Both the position numbers and the translations under genes were made by a program. From assembly GCA_016282855.1 (NCBI GenBank), contig JAEELT010000010.1:1-36111 (forward strand): a stretch of DNA of 36,111 nt. Direction: 5' to 3'. Positions within the stretch are counted from its first letter, which is position 1. Every line of letters begins with the position of its first letter. Shown here one piece after another: positions 434 through 10,373 of this stretch. The stretch is from Clostridiaceae bacterium. Lineage in GTDB: Bacteria > Bacillota > Clostridia > Oscillospirales > Acutalibacteraceae. The notes beneath the pieces are model-generated. The model saw only the letters and a list, made by a program, of their open reading frames with translations. It had not been told where the DNA came from and did no database searches.

Positions 434-449
434 TGTTTCACGTGGAACA
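434..449. other. parS: parS centromere-like site
   Basis: The 16-mer TGTTTCACGTGGAACA reads on the other strand as TGTTCCACGTGAAACA, an exact match to the consensus TGTTNCACGTGAAACA established for ParB/Spo0J. It lies about 185 bp upstream of parA. By family knowledge ParB loads here, spreads, and recruits SMC for origin segregation. No second full match was found in the window. Confidence 0.92.
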
Positions 450-602: not shown

Positions 603-634
603 CCATTCATATTTATAAAATGGGAGCTGAAACA

Positions 635-1408
635 ATGGCTAAATCCGTTGCAATTGTAAACCAGAAGGGCGGGGTAGGCAAAACGACCACCGCCGTGAAT
701 CTTGCCGCCGCGCTCGGAAACAGAGGATATAAAATCCTGCTCGGCGATATTGACCCGCAGGGCAATTCAACCAGCGGTTTCGGGGTAAACAAGAAAGATG
801 TCAACTACACATCCTACGACATGATTGTCGGCAACTGTCAGGCTAAGGACTGCATAGTTGAGACCGCGTTCAAAAATGTGAGCATTATTCCTTCCGGCAT
901 GGACCTTGCCGGCGCGGAGCTTGAGCTTGCAGATTTTGAAAAAAGGGAGAGCCGCCTTAAAAACGCTCTCGCGTTTGTTAACGGCGACTATGATTTCATT
1001 ATTCTTGACTGCCCTCCGTCACTCGGTCTCATAACTCTCAACTGTCTTTGCGCCGCGGACACACTGATTGTGCCGATTCAGTGCGAGTTCTACGCACTTG
1101 AAGGTCTGTCACAGCTTATCGGCACGGTAAGAACGGTCAAGCGCCTGTATAATCCTTACCTTGAGATTGAGGGCGTTCTGCTGACTATGTATGATGGCAG
1201 ACTCAACCTTACACAACAGGTTGTGGATGAGGTCAAAAAATGCTTTCCCAAAAAGGTTTATGCCTCGGCAATTCCGCGCAACGTGCGCCTTTCCGAAGCG
1301 CCGGGTTTCGGCATGCCCGTAATGTATTATGACAAATCATCCAAAGGAGCCGAAGCATACGACCGGCTCGCCGCGGAATTCCTGAAAGCAAACGGAAAGA
1401 GGGGGTAA
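635..1408 (+). CDS. parA: Chromosome partitioning ATPase ParA/Soj
   Basis: This 257-residue protein belongs to the ParA/MinD family of P-loop ATPases, which form nucleoid-bound dimers and work with ParB-parS in origin segregation. It has the deviant Walker A KGGVGKTTT near residues 11-19, a FIILDCPPS Walker B region, and the IPRNVRLSEAPGFGMPV segment typical of chromosomal Soj. The start at 635 is preferred over an in-frame ATG at 620 because GGGAG lies 8 nt upstream, and the protein then begins MAKSVAIVNQKGG like its homologues. A strong promoter and a parS site lie upstream, and parB follows after 5 bp. Confidence 0.96.
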   Translation: MAKSVAIVNQKGGVGKTTTAVNLAAALGNRGYKILLGDIDPQGNSTSGFGVNKKDVNYTSYDMIVGNCQAKDCIVETAFKNVSIIPSGMDLAGAELELADFEKRESRLKNALAFVNGDYDFIILDCPPSLGLITLNCLCAADTLIVPIQCEFYALEGLSQLIGTVRTVKRLYNPYLEIEGVLLTMYDGRLNLTQQVVDEVKKCFPKKVYASAIPRNVRLSEAPGFGMPVMYYDKSSKGAEAYDRLAAEFLKANGKRG

Positions 1409-1413
1409 ATTAA

Positions 1414-2286
1414 ATGGCAGAGAAAAAAAAGGGCGGTCTGGGCAAAGGGCTCAGCTCACTTCTTATGGATAACGCACCCGAGGACGGCAACGGTGCCTCC
1501 TCTGTAATGCTCAGGCTCACCGATATAGAACCAAACAAGGAGCAGGCAAGAAAGAACTTTGATGATGACGCTCTCTCCGAGCTTGCGGATTCAATCTCAC
1601 AGCACGGCGTGCTTCAGCCGCTGCTTGTAAGGCCGCTCATTGGCGGCGGATATCAGCTCATAGCAGGGGAGAGGCGCTGGCGCGCTTCGAGACTTGCGGG
1701 GCTCACGGAAGTACCGGTGATAATAAAAACTCTCTCAGATGAGGAAGCGGCGGTAATCTCGCTTATAGAAAATCTGCAGAGAGAGGACCTTGACCCCGTT
1801 GAGGAGGCAAAAGGCTACCACAAGCTTATAACAGACTACGGTCTCACCCAGGAGGAAGCCGCTGTCAAGGTCGGCAAATCACGCCCGGCTGTTGCAAATT
1901 CACTCAGAATACTCAAACTGCCCGACGAGGTGCTGGCCCTTATTTCTCAGGGTTCCCTTTCCGCCGGCCACGCAAAGGCTCTTGCCGGCATTGAGGACCT
2001 TAAAACCCTTACCGCGCTTGCAAAGACCGTTGCCGAAAAAGGTCTGTCGGTAAGAGAGACCGAGCGTCTTGTCAAGGCGGCGGGCAAGGTTAAGAAACCC
2101 GCGGAAAAGAAACGCACGGGCAGAGATACATATTTTGATGAGGTGGAGCTCGCCCTGCACAATTCCCTCGGCAGAAAGGCCAGGGTTGTCACCGCGGGAA
2201 AAAAGGAAAGCGGCACACTCGAAATTGATTTTTTCAGCAAAGACGACCTTGCGGATATAGTTAAAGCTCTTTCATCATTGGAATAA
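1414..2286 (+). CDS. parB: Chromosome partitioning protein ParB/Spo0J
   Basis: This 290-residue protein is the parS-binding CTPase clamp partner of ParA. It opens with the basic KGGLGKGLSSLL segment seen in many ParBs, which contacts ParA. The ParB/sulfiredoxin domain follows, with GYQLIAGERRWRAS near residues 89-102 forming the CTP-binding region, then IENLQREDLDPVEEA and a helix-turn-helix (GLTQEEAAVKVGKSRPAVAN). The C-terminal dimerisation region ends the protein. It is co-transcribed with parA, and a parS consensus site lies in the parA upstream region. The length is normal for chromosomal ParB. Confidence 0.96.
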   Translation: MAEKKKGGLGKGLSSLLMDNAPEDGNGASSVMLRLTDIEPNKEQARKNFDDDALSELADSISQHGVLQPLLVRPLIGGGYQLIAGERRWRASRLAGLTEVPVIIKTLSDEEAAVISLIENLQREDLDPVEEAKGYHKLITDYGLTQEEAAVKVGKSRPAVANSLRILKLPDEVLALISQGSLSAGHAKALAGIEDLKTLTALAKTVAEKGLSVRETERLVKAAGKVKKPAEKKRTGRDTYFDEVELALHNSLGRKARVVTAGKKESGTLEIDFFSKDDLADIVKALSSLE

Positions 2287-5053: not shown

Positions 5054-6685
5054 ATGTACCTGGCGCTTTACAGAAAATGGAGACCCTCCACCTTTGACGA
5101 GGTTTACGGTCAGCCGCATATAACCGAAACTCTCAAAAAAGAAGTAGCGTCCGGCAAGATTTCTCACGCTTATCTTTTCACCGGCTCAAGAGGCACCGGC
5201 AAAACCTCCTGCGCCAAGATTCTTGCCAAGGCGGTAAACTGCCCCAACGCTGTTGACGGCAACCCCTGCAACGAGTGCGAAATATGCAGAGGCATAGATA
5301 ACGGCTCGCTGACGGATGTTGTGGAAATGGACGCGGCGAGCAACAACGGTGTTGAAGAAATCCGTACTCTGCGCGACGAAATAGTATATGCACCCACAGT
5401 CGCGAAATACAGAGTATATATAATAGACGAAGTGCATATGCTCTCCTCAAGCGCGTTCAACGCCTTTCTCAAGACTCTTGAGGAGCCGCCCGAGCACGCG
5501 ATATTCATTCTTGCTACCACAGATGTCCACAAGGTGCTCCCCACCATTCTCTCAAGATGCCAGCGTTTTGATTTCAGGCGTGTTTCCGCGTCGGATATTA
5601 TAAAACGCCTTAAATATGTGGCAGAAAAAGAAAATGTAACGCTCACCGATGACGCCGCCAACCTTATTGCCGGTGTCGCTGACGGCGGTATGAGAGACGC
5701 GCTCTCCCTGCTTGACCGCTGCTTCGCAATATCCGATAACATAGACTCCGGCGTAGTCAGCTCAGCCGCGGGAGTTACAAGCAACGAAAACCTTTTCAGA
5801 TTTTCGGGTTTCATTGCAGGCGGCGATTTCAAATCCGCCCTTCTGCTTGTTTCGGAGCTTTACTCGGGCTACTGTGATATTTCGGTGCTTGCCAACCGTC
5901 TGCTTGACCATTTCCGCAACATAATGGTGGCAAAATCCGTAAACAACTGCAGCGACCTTATAATCTGCTCCGAAGAGGAGCTCACGGCATATAAAAACAG
6001 AGCAAAAGAAATATCAATGAGCAAAATTCTCGAATGTATCGAGATTCTTTCACAATTCAATTACTCTGTCAGGGAAGCGTCAAACAAACGCATCCTGCTT
6101 GAAACCGCAATTATTAAAATGTGCGGAGTTAAAGACACAGCCGCTTACGCGGCGGCACCTGCCGAATCGCAGGAAAAACAGACATTTCAGATAAAACCTG
6201 AGGCAAAACCCGCGCCTGTCCCCGACTCGCAGCCCGCCAAAGAGCAAACCGGGCCGCGCACCGCTCCCTCACAGGATGCCGGTAATGCGCCCGCCGCCGA
6301 GGCTCAGGCTCCCGCACCCGCCGAAAGCTCTCTCTCCGATGAAGCCTCTTACCCCGACGGTCCGTTTTCGCTCTGGCCCGAAATAAAAGAGCAGCTTAAA
6401 AAATACGATATGGCTCTGTTTGCCGTTTTGTCTTCAACAGACGCTATAATCAAAAACGGCAAGATAGTAATATTCACAAATAACCCCGGTCTTAAAGAAT
6501 ATATCCTCAAAAACAACTATGCCTCCGCTCTCAAAAACGCAATCACCGACATAACCGGCAGAGAGATGAAAGCCGCCATTTCGGTAACCGGAGGCGAGCA
6601 GAAGACCGAAGAGAAACCGCAGGAAAACACAGACAGCAGCCCGCTGAGCAATCTCCTCAGCAAAATCAAAGAGTTCAACGAGTAA
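5054..6685 (+). CDS. dnaX: DNA polymerase III subunits gamma/tau
   Basis: This 543-residue AAA+ protein is the clamp-loader motor subunit. It shows the RKWRPSTFDEVYGQ start, Walker A GSRGTGKT (about residues 44-51), a four-cysteine zinc module with CPNAVDGNPCNECEIC, Walker B VYIIDEVHML, and the SRC sensor in LSRCQRFDF. A Pro/Ala/Glu-rich linker at about residues 370-430 precedes a C-terminal tau-like domain. A GAGGTG ribosome binding site lies 7 nt before the ATG. It is followed by ybaB and recR, the standard dnaX-ybaB-recR operon. No convincing programmed-frameshift signal was identified. Confidence 0.97.
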   Translation: MYLALYRKWRPSTFDEVYGQPHITETLKKEVASGKISHAYLFTGSRGTGKTSCAKILAKAVNCPNAVDGNPCNECEICRGIDNGSLTDVVEMDAASNNGVEEIRTLRDEIVYAPTVAKYRVYIIDEVHMLSSSAFNAFLKTLEEPPEHAIFILATTDVHKVLPTILSRCQRFDFRRVSASDIIKRLKYVAEKENVTLTDDAANLIAGVADGGMRDALSLLDRCFAISDNIDSGVVSSAAGVTSNENLFRFSGFIAGGDFKSALLLVSELYSGYCDISVLANRLLDHFRNIMVAKSVNNCSDLIICSEEELTAYKNRAKEISMSKILECIEILSQFNYSVREASNKRILLETAIIKMCGVKDTAAYAAAPAESQEKQTFQIKPEAKPAPVPDSQPAKEQTGPRTAPSQDAGNAPAAEAQAPAPAESSLSDEASYPDGPFSLWPEIKEQLKKYDMALFAVLSSTDAIIKNGKIVIFTNNPGLKEYILKNNYASALKNAITDITGREMKAAISVTGGEQKTEEKPQENTDSSPLSNLLSKIKEFNE

Positions 6686-6697
6686 GGAGTTAACAAA

Positions 6698-7036
6698 ATG
6701 AAAGCAAGAATACCCGGCGCAAACCAGGGCGGCCAGGCCAACATGATGAAAAGAATACAGGAAATGCAGGAGAATATGGAGAGAATCCAGAAAGAAGTTG
6801 AAGAAACAGAGTTCACTTCTTCTGCAGGCGGCGGAGCTGTTGAAGTAACCGTTACGGGAGCTCATCAGGTCACGGCAATCAAGCTTGAGCCCGAAATAGT
6901 TGACCCCGAAGATATAGAAATGCTTGAGGATCTTATTATTTCCGCCTGCAACGAAAGCATCCGCAAGGCAAATGAAGCTATGGAAAAAGGTATGGAGGAG
7001 GCCAAAGGCGGTCTTTCCATACCCGGTCTGCTTTAA
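6698..7036 (+). CDS. Nucleoid-associated protein, YbaB/EbfC family
   Basis: The 112-residue protein has a Met/Gln-rich amphipathic helix ([19 protein letters not shown]) followed by [29 protein letters not shown], the signature of the YbaB/EbfC DNA-binding family. These small dimers bind DNA with little sequence specificity, and their exact role is unsettled. The gene sits between dnaX and recR as in most bacteria. Its stop overlaps the recR start (TAATG), implying translational coupling. Confidence 0.95.
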
Positions 7037-7635
7037 TGCCGGGCTTTGCTCCGTCTCTTGAAATACTCATAGATAAGCTTGCCTCTCTGCCCTCAATAGG
7101 CAGAAAAAGCGCTCAGAGGCTCGCCTTTCATTTTATGTCTATGAGTGATGCGGAAGCGGAGTCTTTCTCTCAGGCAATCGAAAATGCCCGCAAAAAAGTT
7201 AAAAGATGCACTGTATGCTGCAATTTCTCGGATGATGACATCTGCCCGATATGCTCATCAAAGGAGCGTGACCGCTCGGTAATCTGCGTGGTTGAAGACC
7301 CGCGCGATGTGCTCGCCTTTGAAAGGACACACGAATATCCCGGTCTTTATCACGTGCTTCACGGTGTTATCTCCCCGATGAATGATATAAACCCCGAAGA
7401 TATCTGCATAAAAGAGCTTATTGCCCGCCTTTCGGGCGACGAAGTCAAAGAAGTGATAATGGCAACAAACCCCACAGTTGAGGGCGAGGCCACTTCTATG
7501 TATATCTCAAAGCTCATAAAACCTCTGGGTGTCAAGGTAAGCCGTCTCGCTTACGGAGTGCCCGTGGGAGCTGACCTTGAATATGCCGACGAATTTACTC
7601 TTATAAGGGCAATGGAAGGCAGAAAAGACCTCTGA
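7036..7635 (+). CDS. recR: Recombination mediator RecR
   Basis: The 199-residue protein contains the N-terminal helix-hairpin-helix ([19 protein letters not shown]), a four-cysteine zinc finger ([16 protein letters not shown]), a Toprim domain beginning [14 protein letters not shown], and the conserved end [18 protein letters not shown]. RecR acts with RecO and RecF to load RecA on SSB-coated DNA. The length is typical. It lies last in the dnaX operon, and here it directly precedes the putative origin and dnaN, which is unusual because dnaA normally occupies that place. Confidence 0.97.
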
Positions 7636-7650
7636 TTTCAGTACCGGTGT

Positions 7651-7860
7651 TTTCAACATTTTTTTCACCTTCTCTTCACCCTCATTCACGGTTTTCACAC
7701 CACCTTTTGCTGTTCACTTTTTTAACATTTTACTCACGGTCCGGATGTTAAAAATTCAGCCCCTTTTTTTCAGGTTTTTCAAGCATTTTCAGAGTTGTAC
7801 CACATTTTCACGCCCCCTACTACTACTACTGAATAATGTATAAGAATACACATAATTACC
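7651..7860. other. Putative replication origin (oriC-like) between recR and dnaN
   Basis: This non-coding gap (7636-7915) has four ordered parts. First, TTCAC/TTTTCA-type motifs begin with TCA at 7653, 7665, 7676, 7686, 7695, 7714, 7734, 7770, 7779, 7789 and 7808, mostly 9-12 or 19-20 bp apart, so roughly on one helical face. Second, a CCCCC cluster lies at 7813-7817. Third, CTA is repeated four times at 7817-7828. Fourth, an AT-rich stretch (7830-7857) follows. In B. subtilis the oriC order is DnaA boxes, GC cluster, DnaA-trios, AT-rich unwinding region, then dnaN. No perfect TTATCCACA box was seen and dnaA is not adjacent, so this remains a candidate. Confidence 0.55.
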
Positions 7861-7915
7861 GACGGATAAACTGCAGTTACCCCTGTATCCGCCGAAAATA
7901 CTGGAGGAAGCATTT

Positions 7916-9025
7916 ATGAAGTTCATCTGCAATACTTATGATTTATCTGAGGCCTGTCAGATAGTTCAGAGAGCCGCGTCCGCAAAGACAGCTCTTCCGT
8001 CTGTTGAAGGTATCTTGCTCACAGCGGAAAACAGCAAACTTACTCTGACCGGTTATGATCTTGAAATGGGTATTATAACTGAGATTCCCTGCTCTTCATC
8101 CGAAGACGGCAGTATAGTTATCAACGCCCATATGCTCAGTGAGACTTTAAGAAAGCTTCCCGCGGAAAAAGTTACCGTGGATGCCGATGCCAGGCAGATA
8201 GCCACCATAGAAAGCGGAGAGTTCAAGACCACAATAATCGGAATGAACGCGGAGGATTATCCTGAGCTTCCTTCCGTTACCAGGGGTTATGATGTGGAGA
8301 TAAGCCAGAAGATACTCAAGGATATGATCCGCAAGACTATTTTCTCCGCAGCGGTAAAAGACAGCAAAGTTGTTCACACGGGTGTGAAGTTTGAAATAGA
8401 AACGGGTCACATACGCCTTGTCGCAGTGGACGGCGTACGTCTCGCAATAAGAAATGAAAATATAGATTATTCCGGCGAGGAGCTCACCTTTGTTGTGCCG
8501 GCAAAAACTCTTTCCGAAGTAGTGAAGCTTCTCGGCGATGAGGATGAAAAAATAAAGCTTTCCGTGGGCACAAGGCACATTACATTCTCAATCGGAGCTT
8601 ATTACATTATTTCGAGGCTTCTTGACGGTGAATTTCTTAACTACAAGTCAGCCATTCCCTCGGCGGCAAAGACCATAGCCAAGGTTGAAACGGCAAAGTT
8701 TCTTGACAGTATAGACAGAACATCGCTTATTATCACCGACAGAATCAAGAGCCCCATCAAGTGTGTTTTTGCAGATGACAGCATAGTAATGTCAAGTAAC
8801 GCGTCAATAGGCGCTTCAAACGACAAGATTTCAGCCGAAATCACCGGCGAGGATATTACTGTCGGTTTTAATAATAAATATATGATTGACGCGCTCAGAG
8901 TATGCGACACCGATGAAATAAAAATCATGCTCAACAGCCCGGTTGCTCCCATACTTGTAGTGCCGGTAGAGGGCGATGAATTTATTTTCCTTATTCTCCC
9001 CGTGAGGCTGAAGAATGAAAATTAA
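7916..9025 (+). CDS. dnaN: DNA polymerase III beta sliding clamp
   Basis: The 369-residue protein has the three-fold clamp architecture. The N-terminal MKFICNTYDLSEACQIVQRA, the central GVKFEIETGHIRLVAVDGVRLAIR, and the C-terminal NSPVAPILVVPVEGDEFIFLILPVRL are characteristic. It forms the ring that tethers DNA polymerase and binds partner clamp motifs. GGAGGAAG lies 5-6 nt before the ATG. It heads a dnaN-rlbA-recF block and overlaps rlbA by 11 bp. dnaA does not precede it. Confidence 0.97.
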   Translation: MKFICNTYDLSEACQIVQRAASAKTALPSVEGILLTAENSKLTLTGYDLEMGIITEIPCSSSEDGSIVINAHMLSETLRKLPAEKVTVDADARQIATIESGEFKTTIIGMNAEDYPELPSVTRGYDVEISQKILKDMIRKTIFSAAVKDSKVVHTGVKFEIETGHIRLVAVDGVRLAIRNENIDYSGEELTFVVPAKTLSEVVKLLGDEDEKIKLSVGTRHITFSIGAYYIISRLLDGEFLNYKSAIPSAAKTIAKVETAKFLDSIDRTSLIITDRIKSPIKCVFADDSIVMSSNASIGASNDKISAEITGEDITVGFNNKYMIDALRVCDTDEIKIMLNSPVAPILVVPVEGDEFIFLILPVRLKNEN

Positions 9026-9254
9026 AGTCAGAGTTGCCGAAAAGCAGGAAATACATAAAAAGATAAATACCGAATTTGTAAAGCTTGACGCTTTTCTGAA
9101 GCTCAATGACGCTGTGCAGACCGGAGGCCACGCAAAGCTCGTGATTCAGGGCGGAGAGGTTAAGGTAAACGGAGAAACCTGCCTGCTCAGGGGCAAAAAA
9201 ATAAGAAAAGGCGACAGAGTCGAATTCGAAAGAAAAATCTATATAGCAGAATAA
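9015..9254 (+). CDS. rlbA: S4-domain RNA-binding protein RlbA/YaaA
   Basis: This 79-residue protein is an S4 RNA-binding domain with the signature FVKLDAFLKLNDAVQTGGHAK followed by IQGGEVKVNGETCLLRGKKIRKGDRVEF. The small dnaN-recF intervening gene of Firmicutes (yaaA, now rlbA) belongs to this family and is thought to act in ribosome assembly. Its start overlaps the end of dnaN, so translation is probably coupled. An inverted repeat begins 6 bp after its stop and covers the recF start. Confidence 0.92.
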   Translation: MKIKVRVAEKQEIHKKINTEFVKLDAFLKLNDAVQTGGHAKLVIQGGEVKVNGETCLLRGKKIRKGDRVEFERKIYIAE

Positions 9255-9260
9255 TAAAAG

Positions 9261-9302
9261 AGAGGAATGGTGATATAAATGATAATATTGAACCATTCCT
9301 CT
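9261..9302 (+). promoter_or_regulatory. Inverted repeat enclosing the recF ribosome binding site and start codon
   Basis: AGAGGAATGGT (9261-9271) and ACCATTCCTCT (9292-9302) are perfect 11-bp arms. The 20-nt AT-rich loop holds the recF ATG at 9279. The Shine-Dalgarno-like GAGG lies in the 5' arm, and the 3' arm is inside recF coding sequence (codons for NHSS). In mRNA this would hide the ribosome binding site. The role is inferred from position only. Confidence 0.65.
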
Positions 9303-10373
9303 TTTAATTTCAGAAATATTGAAAAGTGCAGCATTGAGCCGCACACCGAGATGAATATAATCTACGGCGAAAACGGTCAGGGCAAAACAAACCTTATTGA
9401 AAGCATCTGGATGATGACGGGTTTTTACTCTTTCCGCGCGAGAAAAAACATTCAGCTGATAAGACAGGGCAACGAGCAGGCAAAAATACAAACGGAGTTT
9501 TATTCATCCGGCAGAAACCAGAGAGCTGAGCTCATAATCGGAAACAAAAAGGAGCTGACTCTCAACGAAGTGAAAGAGGAGAGCCCGAGAGCGATGATGG
9601 GCACATTTCCCGTGGTTGTTTTTTCACCGTCAACTCTCGGAATTGTCAGAGACGGCCCGGCTGAAAGAAGAAAAATGCTCGACATAGGCATAAGTCAGAT
9701 TAAGCCGAATTATGCCGTGCTTATGAGCAAATATCTGAGAGTGGTTGATCAGAGAAATGTGCTTTTGAAAAAATTCGGGGAAAAAAGCGCCCGGATGGAG
9801 GATTATTTCGCTCCCTGGAATGAAGAGCTTGCCTCTCTCGGAGCAAAAATAATAAAATACCGGCTTGATTACACGGAAAAGCTGTATGAATACGCCTCGG
9901 ATATTTATTCCGGAATAAGCTCGGGCAGGGAGAGTTTCACATTTTATTACAGTTTTTCAAGAGATAATAACGACGAAAACGAAATAAAGGACAGGCTTGT
10001 AAAAGAGATTGAAAAGAGCTTTGAGAGTGATATAAAGAGAAGCTATACGGGAGCCGGACCGCACGCACACGACCTGATACTCAGCCTTGACGGCAGAGAC
10101 GCGAGGATGTACGCCTCACAGGGTCAGCAGCGCTCGTGCGCCCTCGCTCTGAAGCTCAGCGAAGCGCAGATAACCGAAAATGTAACGGGCGAAAGCCCCG
10201 CGGTGCTGCTTGATGATGTTATGAGCGAGCTCGATGAAGGCAGGCAGAAATTCATATTGAATTTTCTTGATAAAAGGCAGGTATTCATCACCTGCTGTGA
10301 GCCGTCAACTTTACTCAGAAAAGAGAGAGGCAAAGTTTTTGAAGTAAAAAACGGCGAAGTAAAAGAGCTGTAA
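9279..10373 (+). CDS. recF: Recombination and repair protein RecF
   Basis: The 364-residue SMC-like ATPase shows Walker A GENGQGKTNLIE (about residues 31-42), the ABC signature ASQGQQRSCALALKLSEAQ, and Walker B VLLDDVMSELD. RecF recognises single/double-strand junctions at stalled forks and works with RecO and RecR. The FNFRNIEKCSIEP N-terminus and length fit the family. It follows rlbA after 24 bp, and its initiation region lies inside the 11-bp inverted repeat described separately, suggesting translational control. Confidence 0.96.
   Translation: MIILNHSSFNFRNIEKCSIEPHTEMNIIYGENGQGKTNLIESIWMMTGFYSFRARKNIQLIRQGNEQAKIQTEFYSSGRNQRAELIIGNKKELTLNEVKEESPRAMMGTFPVVVFSPSTLGIVRDGPAERRKMLDIGISQIKPNYAVLMSKYLRVVDQRNVLLKKFGEKSARMEDYFAPWNEELASLGAKIIKYRLDYTEKLYEYASDIYSGISSGRESFTFYYSFSRDNNDENEIKDRLVKEIEKSFESDIKRSYTGAGPHAHDLILSLDGRDARMYASQGQQRSCALALKLSEAQITENVTGESPAVLLDDVMSELDEGRQKFILNFLDKRQVFITCCEPSTLLRKERGKVFEVKNGEVKEL

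Follow-up and report, generated by a model that had tools for sequence, protein, structure and literature searches.

The 280-bp gap between recR and dnaN described here is very probably an active oriC that opens by a Bacillus-type BUS, is unlinked from dnaA and, in the subclade to which it belongs, carries DnaA boxes shifted to T at position 5 (T5). The support that we observed comes from the anatomy of the gap, its conservation, gene order, parS, the symmetry of inversions and, in part, GC skew. An earlier note, made from the sequence alone, had proposed an active or relic origin split from dnaA. The split and the active origin are upheld, but a relic is much less well supported than an active origin, because the box and trios are conserved genus-wide and because parS, inversions and, less uniformly, skew mark dnaN and not dnaA. 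The window (the whole stretch of 36,111 nucleotides that was analysed) is one contig (G000:C100) of a draft genome of 2.32 Mb in 140 contigs, and the same-genus genomes compared with it are all fragmented draft assemblies. Herbivore guts are the source of many of the relatives.

The order in the window is parS, parA, parB, two more genes, dnaX, ybaB, recR, the gap (7636-7915), dnaN, an S4-domain gene and recF (Table 1). The parS site is an exact pattern match on both strands, where 0.12 matches with up to two mismatches are expected in the window. A second parS lies at G000:C74:11910-11925 (L297), within an mnmG/gidA gene and ~1 kb from the contig end; this position suggests that contig G000:C74 abuts the left end of the window, where the first bases resemble the end of what we take to be rsmG/gidB. 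The N-terminal, AAA+ and HTH domains are all present in the DnaA of this genome, which also encodes a DnaD/DnaB-type protein (PF07261) that would suit Bacillus-type helicase loading. The locus G000:C17:6562-8090 carries a DnaD/DnaB_2-type gene and, after it, an AAA+ frame that weakly matches the DnaA family (1e-10) and is probably a DnaI/DnaC-type helicase loader.

Table 1 Features of the window around the proposed origin
Feature	Position	Strand	Remarks
parS centromere site TGTTTCACGTGGAACA	434..449	.	about 7.4 kb from the unwinding element
parA (Soj-type ATPase)	620..1408	+	Pfam AAA_31 4.3e-66, CbiA/MinD/ParA family
parB (Spo0J-type)	1414..2286	+	Pfam HTH_ParB 9.9e-37, ParB_N 7.4e-34
dnaX, clamp loader gamma/tau	5054..6685	+	Pfam
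ybaB	6698..7036	+	Pfam YbaB_DNA_bd 6.5e-32
recR	7036..7635	+	Pfam RecR domains; directly upstream of the proposed origin, dnaA's place in relatives
Array of eight DnaA-box-like sites, one orientation	7649..7738	+	core TTCAC in five; 9-mers start at 7649, 7661, 7672, 7682, 7691, 7710, 7719, 7730 (9-19 bp apart)
Candidate upstream box of the unwinding element, TGTACCACA	7796..7804	+	3 mismatches to TTATCCACA; putative box
Trio-proximal DnaA box (predicted), ATTTTCACG	7804..7812	+	core at -10 from the first trio genus-wide
GC-rich spacer GCCCC	7812..7816	+	read from the sequence
Five DnaA-trios CTA CTA CTA CTA CTG, CTACTACTACTACTG	7817..7831	+	3'-GAT-5' type, lower strand
AT-rich stretch	7832..7860	.	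putative site of unwinding
dnaN, sliding clamp	7916..9025	+	Pfam
S4-domain gene (yaaA/rlbA position)	9015..9254	+	Pfam S4_2 3.3e-23
recF	9279..10373	+	Pfam SMC_N (RecF/RecN/SMC) 2.2e-17; exact name probable from position

Six plus-strand TTCAC cores start in the gap at 7664, 7675, 7685, 7694, 7713 and 7807 (spacings of 11, 10, 9, 19 and 94 bp), with weaker sites inside the array at 7652 (TTCAA), 7722 (TTAAC) and 7733 (CTCAC). Six cores in 200 bp make the gap the densest plus-strand TTCAC cluster of the window. The triple TTCAC-N6-TTCAC-N5-TTCAC, a pattern derived from the window sequence itself, occurs once in the window and in none of 100 shuffles. With up to two mismatches, CTACTACTACTACT gave two overlapping matches in the window, both in the gap, against 0.05 expected, and one of 100 shuffles reached the same number. 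The box-plus-trio expression has one match in the window and one in the whole 2.32-Mb genome, at the same site, and the sequence AGTT.TACCACA around TGTACCACA is well conserved in the alignment of window-clade gaps. The phased TTTTCA-type motifs, C-rich spacer, CTA repeats and AT-rich DNA of the earlier note were read directly and measured, with shuffles for the triple array and the trio run, and its parallel with B. subtilis oriC holds, as boxes, GC-rich spacer, CTA-type trios and AT-rich DNA lead to dnaN in the same order and orientation. According to the published description of the BUS (PMC8287927), at least three DnaA-trios with a central A (3'-NAN-5', lower strand) are accompanied, within 16 bp, by a box with up to two mismatches to TTATCCACA or to a species-specific motif. 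Five such trios are present at 7817-7831, whereas ATTTTCACG and TGTACCACA have four and three mismatches to TTATCCACA, so that the box agrees only if the lineage motif TTCAC is used. No site with zero or one mismatch to TTATCCACA lies in the gap, and the five across the window are at chance level (5.9 expected); the boxes had therefore rightly been called poor matches to TTATCCACA. In order, orientation and spacing, the elements predicted in the gap fit the BUS.

To assess conservation, we read the gaps of 34 same-genus dnaN loci (L007-L036, L067-L070). In all 34, dnaN is preceded by a box and four or more trios, with a generally GC-rich spacer of 5 bp between them, and throughout the genus a core TTCAC, TTAAC, TCAAC or TCCAC starts 10 bp before the first trio. 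recR stands ahead of the gap in all of these loci but G016 (33 of 34). When 27 gaps, from the window clade and its sister clade, were aligned, T[TC]CAC at -131 to -133 and the core at -10 from the first trio were found in 27 of 27. Other sites recur in part, at about -165, -153, -142, -123, -104, -95 and -84 in the window clade and at about -165, -147, -124 and -83 in the sister clade. Much of the gap sequence diverges in this alignment, but the key boxes and trios hold their position, and the CTA repeats and, in part, the phased motifs are thus conserved in relatives, as the reading of an origin had anticipated. From the 34 gaps we derived the pattern TYMAC-N5-CTAHTRHTRHTR, which in 45 genomes gave 44 matches, 41 of them just upstream of dnaN and three elsewhere (one each in G016, G029 and G061), with one match in the window's own genome. 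It stands just before dnaN in 41 of the 42 same-genus genomes with a dnaN match and was not matched in the three genomes without one. Seven of the eight genomes with dnaN beyond the 34 match at dnaN, and the eighth, G061, fails there solely because one trio reads CAA. The reversed control gave 32 matches in the 45 genomes, counted without their locations, so the number of matches is weak by itself and it is the location at dnaN that carries weight. At the dnaN locus of G016 (C25, L133), dnaX lies directly before the origin gap and ybaB after a fast-evolving dnaN, with no recR match and no dnaA found.

The absence of dnaA from the recR-dnaN neighbourhood, seen in the earlier note, extends to the genus: dnaA and dnaN are on different contigs in all 39 same-genus genomes with both (45 searched). 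The window genome's own dnaA was located on a separate contig, flanked by ftsY and, in the opposite direction, by rpmH, rnpA, yidC and jag (Pfam; rpmH from its translation). In 20 dnaA loci, taken with flanks of about 10 kb where available, ftsY follows dnaA in 20, rnpA is divergent and within 1.5 kb of dnaA in 17, and dnaN is within about 10 kb of dnaA in none. At 40 named dnaN loci of the genus, dnaX (40/40), recR (39/40) and ybaB (39/40) are upstream, and dnaA is absent from all 40; the 80 named loci overall comprise 39 with recR, 38 with dnaA, two with neither and one without recR (L133, G016). Most relatives outside the genus keep dnaA linked to dnaN, and L141-L145 and L148 have parA/parB, a reversed jag-yidC-rnpA and then dnaA-dnaN-recF, which is presumably the ancestral order. 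We infer from this outgroup order that the jag-yidC-rnpA-rpmH-dnaA block moved out and that the unwinding element kept its place with dnaN and par. recR does stand directly upstream, in dnaA's place as previously noted, but this is no simple swap, as that whole block left and dnaX-ybaB-recR now lies upstream. On the DnaN tree, with G016 scored as recR although dnaX precedes its gap, the fewest changes that account for the split are three (G036 and L135 are weakly placed), and with the same scoring an AU test did not reject a single clade (p 0.075); the split may have arisen once or several times. In L146 and L149, a box-CTA-trio element precedes dnaN, and neither dnaA nor recR was found in the 8.7 and 6.7 kb of sequence available upstream, so these may be further independent splits of origin and dnaA. 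G047 belongs to a different family of the order; there, dnaX-ybaB-recR-dnaA form one uninterrupted series (G047:C17:1285-4999, L094), and dnaN is on a different contig (G047:C10, L093) with TTATCCAC sites before it. Among the matches listed in literature searches on an origin-dnaA split in Clostridia or near dnaN, and on the effect of dnaA position, none concerned this genus.

Since unwinding of the C. difficile origin in vitro requires both oriC1 and oriC2 (PMC7561715), boxes at dnaA and at dnaN might still cooperate over a distance as a two-part origin. Upstream of dnaA, the window genome has six box-like sites against 1.4 expected, and five or six also occur in G004 and G031. However, 15 of 21 genus genomes have two or fewer such sites there (about one by chance), and the median is 2 in the genus compared with 3.5 in 20 outgroup loci. 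Moreover, contig extents place dnaA and dnaN at least about 287 kb apart in G021 and 295 kb apart in G017, assuming one chromosome and correct assembly. We consider such cooperation improbable. A proposal that the region upstream of dnaA had been stripped of boxes and the two-part origin fully lost was dropped in view of the six sites in the window genome, which may serve autoregulation or some origin-like function.

parS usually lies near oriC, as reported in PMC7022226. With up to one mismatch, it was matched in 43 of the 45 genomes, compared with two matches in total for the reversed control. Placement was read in the 35 genomes among the matches listed: parS shares a contig with dnaN in 27, at a distance of about 5-26 kb, and is found only on other contigs in eight, whereas none of the 33 genomes with dnaA among the matches listed has it on the dnaA contig. 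The 20 dnaA loci likewise contain no parS, and some genomes have a few sites elsewhere, mostly with one mismatch. Both the site at 434-449 in the window and this placement across the genus put parS close to the proposed origin.

Origin-symmetric inversions have been described as the dominant form of structural variation in bacteria (PMC9584773). We counted ortholog pairs more than 3.5 kb away at 27 dnaN loci (the window included) and 20 dnaA loci. The dnaN loci gave 420 pairs on the same side and strand, 190 on the opposite side and strand, 45 on the same side but opposite strand and 37 on the opposite side but same strand; the corresponding numbers at dnaA loci were 532, 9, 3 and 2. Mirrored pairs, which were counted on short flanks and are not independent of one another, thus make up 190 of 692 at dnaN loci and 9 of 546 at dnaA loci, so that inversion symmetry is found at the former and rarely at the latter. 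Fisher values for the pooled pairs were set aside because of this non-independence. As flank length limits off-centre pairs, these counts locate the inversion axis only roughly, but the difference from dnaA is unaffected. Among the long contigs, the blocks that lie at -23 to -8 kb in G023 and G020 are found in inverted orientation at +7 to +21 kb in G017.

GC skew, proposed earlier as a check, agrees locally and in part over longer distances. With 10-kb flanks, 26 of 40 dnaN loci had at least 7 kb per side, and in all 26 the left skew is below the right, with a sign change in 17; at dnaA loci the left is below the right in 11 of 20, with a sign change in three. To the left and right of the proposed origin in the window the genes are all on the plus strand, and the skew step there is therefore not accounted for by the direction of transcription; around dnaN, coding-strand bias showed no consistent trend. 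On the 350-kb contig G023:C11, the skew minimum is 1.1 kb from the dnaN start and the V-fit break 0.7 kb away. On G017:C5 (240 kb), the minimum is 6.3 kb and the V-fit break 15.5 kb from dnaN, with skews over 50 kb of -0.051 and +0.047. G027:C3 has its V-fit break 1.4 kb from dnaN, a nearly flat right side and its cumulative minimum at the far end, and G021:C25 and G036:C30 have no clear long-range flip at dnaN. The minimum of G020:C29, 75 kb from dnaN, contradicts the dnaN site. From about 18 to 80 kb beyond dnaN, this contig has few orthologs in related contigs and a skew partly opposite to expectation; about 60 kb there shares few orthologs with the contigs of G023 and G017 and is possibly an island, inversion, insertion or misassembly. 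In a split-point scan, six of 15 dnaN tests fell in the top 5%, and no sign change coincides with dnaA on any of three dnaA contigs. GC skew alone is not decisive, as it is weak in the genus and one long contig disagrees.

The skew of G020, together with the excess of box-like sites before the window genome's dnaA, is what would be expected if the gap were a relic, its boxes and trios left over and replication beginning elsewhere, for example in the rpmH-dnaA gap. This is very unlikely, given that the key boxes and trios are fixed in place in diverging gaps, that the box-plus-trio pattern is so regularly found at dnaN, and that parS, inversion symmetry and the local skew step track dnaN and not dnaA. 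Still less probable is that the array, because it directly precedes dnaN, merely makes a DnaA-regulated promoter region: trios are not parts of promoters, the origin markers centre on the gap, and relatives with dnaA-dnaN (L134, L136, L138 and L140) carry a box/trio-like element at the same place before dnaN. That the split is an artefact of fragmentary metagenome assemblies is barely conceivable despite the fragmentation of all same-genus genomes, as the upstream gene order without dnaA recurs within single contigs of many independent assemblies and ftsY follows dnaA at all 20 dnaA loci.

The predicted DnaA boxes of the window subclade mostly have T at position 5 (core TTCAC). All 13 gaps of the window clade contain three to nine TTCAC and at most one TCCAC on the plus strand, whereas 19 of the other 21 contain at least two TCCAC, the exceptions being G016 (a TTCAC array) and G013 (TCAAC-rich). 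Position 5 is C in the conserved candidate TGTACCACA, unlike in the TTCAC boxes. The deep-branching members G013, G030 and G031 have four to seven TCAAC-core sites per gap, perhaps a third box dialect. The suspicion that box specificity may have drifted is thus supported, mainly as C to T at position 5, but T5 was already described for Epsilonproteobacteria, where it occurs in all 33 mapped boxes (PMC5043019). The DnaA recognition helix is DRT[TA]IHYA in 11 of 11 window-clade genomes with a readable DnaA, DRTTIL[YH]S or DRTTVFHS in the sister clade, DHTTVMHA in G013, G030 and G031, and mostly of DHST type in outgroups. Aligned with B. subtilis DnaA (8btg), the window genome's protein has H414 changed to R, T416 to A, I418 to H and H419 to Y, positions that correspond to E. 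coli 434, 436, 438 and 439 (motif described in PMC5043019). G016, basal to the window clade, combines TTCAC boxes with the helix DRTAILYS, so H438 is not needed for the TTCAC box type, and T436A may have come first.

According to PMC5043019, E. coli DnaA is largely indifferent to whether position 5 is T or C, and its authors tentatively tied the Epsilonproteobacterial T5 to helix-5 positions 435 and 438-439. The T5 clade is one group on the DnaN tree (14 rows, support 98/93). The box change therefore counts as one event, and the link between box and helix rests on one contrast and the Epsilonproteobacterial parallel, which is not statistical proof; a causal link would be consistent with both. 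It is a tentative proposal, to which we give slightly less than even credence, that DnaA and origin changed specificity together within the genus (C5 to T5; L438H and partly T436A, atop H434R and H439Y, which are older) and so arrived at the box type of Epsilonproteobacteria once dnaA had been unlinked. If true, the genus holds two partly orthogonal initiator-origin pairs.

In the BUS model, box-bound DnaA feeds an ATP-dependent filament onto the trios (PMC8287927, PMC10721633). By analogy, DnaA would bind the phased boxes and the trio-proximal box, and a filament of ATP-bound DnaA would extend onto the lower-strand DnaA-trios and open the AT-rich DNA for helicase loading. In the evolutionary scenario that we favour, the ancestral jag-yidC-rnpA-rpmH-dnaA block would have been relocated elsewhere on the chromosome and the unwinding element would have remained with dnaN-recF and parS/parAB, so that initiator gene and origin became unlinked. 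In the subclade, the boxes may then have shifted to T5 (core TTCAC) along with the changes in the DnaA recognition helix.

Compared with B. subtilis oriC, the window has recR-ybaB-dnaX instead of dnaA upstream, and its boxes are mostly of TTCAC core and not TTATCCACA. The oriC1-dnaA-oriC2 region of Clostridioides difficile likewise has an array of trios, CACCTACTACTATTACTACTATGA, ahead of its unwinding region and of dnaN (PMC7561715), but rnpA-rpmH-dnaA-dnaN are contiguous there and both halves are needed in vitro, whereas the dnaA half is unlinked here. Cyanobacterial origins also adjoin dnaN and are not directly beside dnaA (PMC4674748, PMC6323995), but their box is TTTTCCACA and the lineage is distant, so theirs is presumably an independent arrangement. 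The Epsilonproteobacterial boxes share T at position 5 and the TTCAC core (PMC5043019) with most of the boxes predicted here. However, their origin is typically ruvC-dnaA-dnaN, unlike that of the window, and their DnaA often has serine 438 and lysine 439 (epsilon and delta counted together), compared with H438, Y439, R434 and partly A436 here.

In the Firmicutes, the rnpA-rpmH-dnaA-dnaN context appears conserved, and the cases studied have a two-part origin around dnaA (PMC7561715). This genus is an exception, with no dnaA upstream of the unwinding region at any of the 40 named loci. Origin finders that rely on dnaA or on TTATCCACA are likely to miss such an origin. With its T5 boxes and altered recognition helix, the subclade lends itself to probing DnaA-box specificity in vitro by simple exchanges of domain IV and of boxes (TTATCCACA, TTTTCCACA and TTTTTCACA). 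Taken together, our results indicate that, across a whole genus, the unwinding element probably stayed with dnaN and parABS while dnaA left, which would show which half can mark the origin and makes the genus a natural test of the need for dnaA near oriC.
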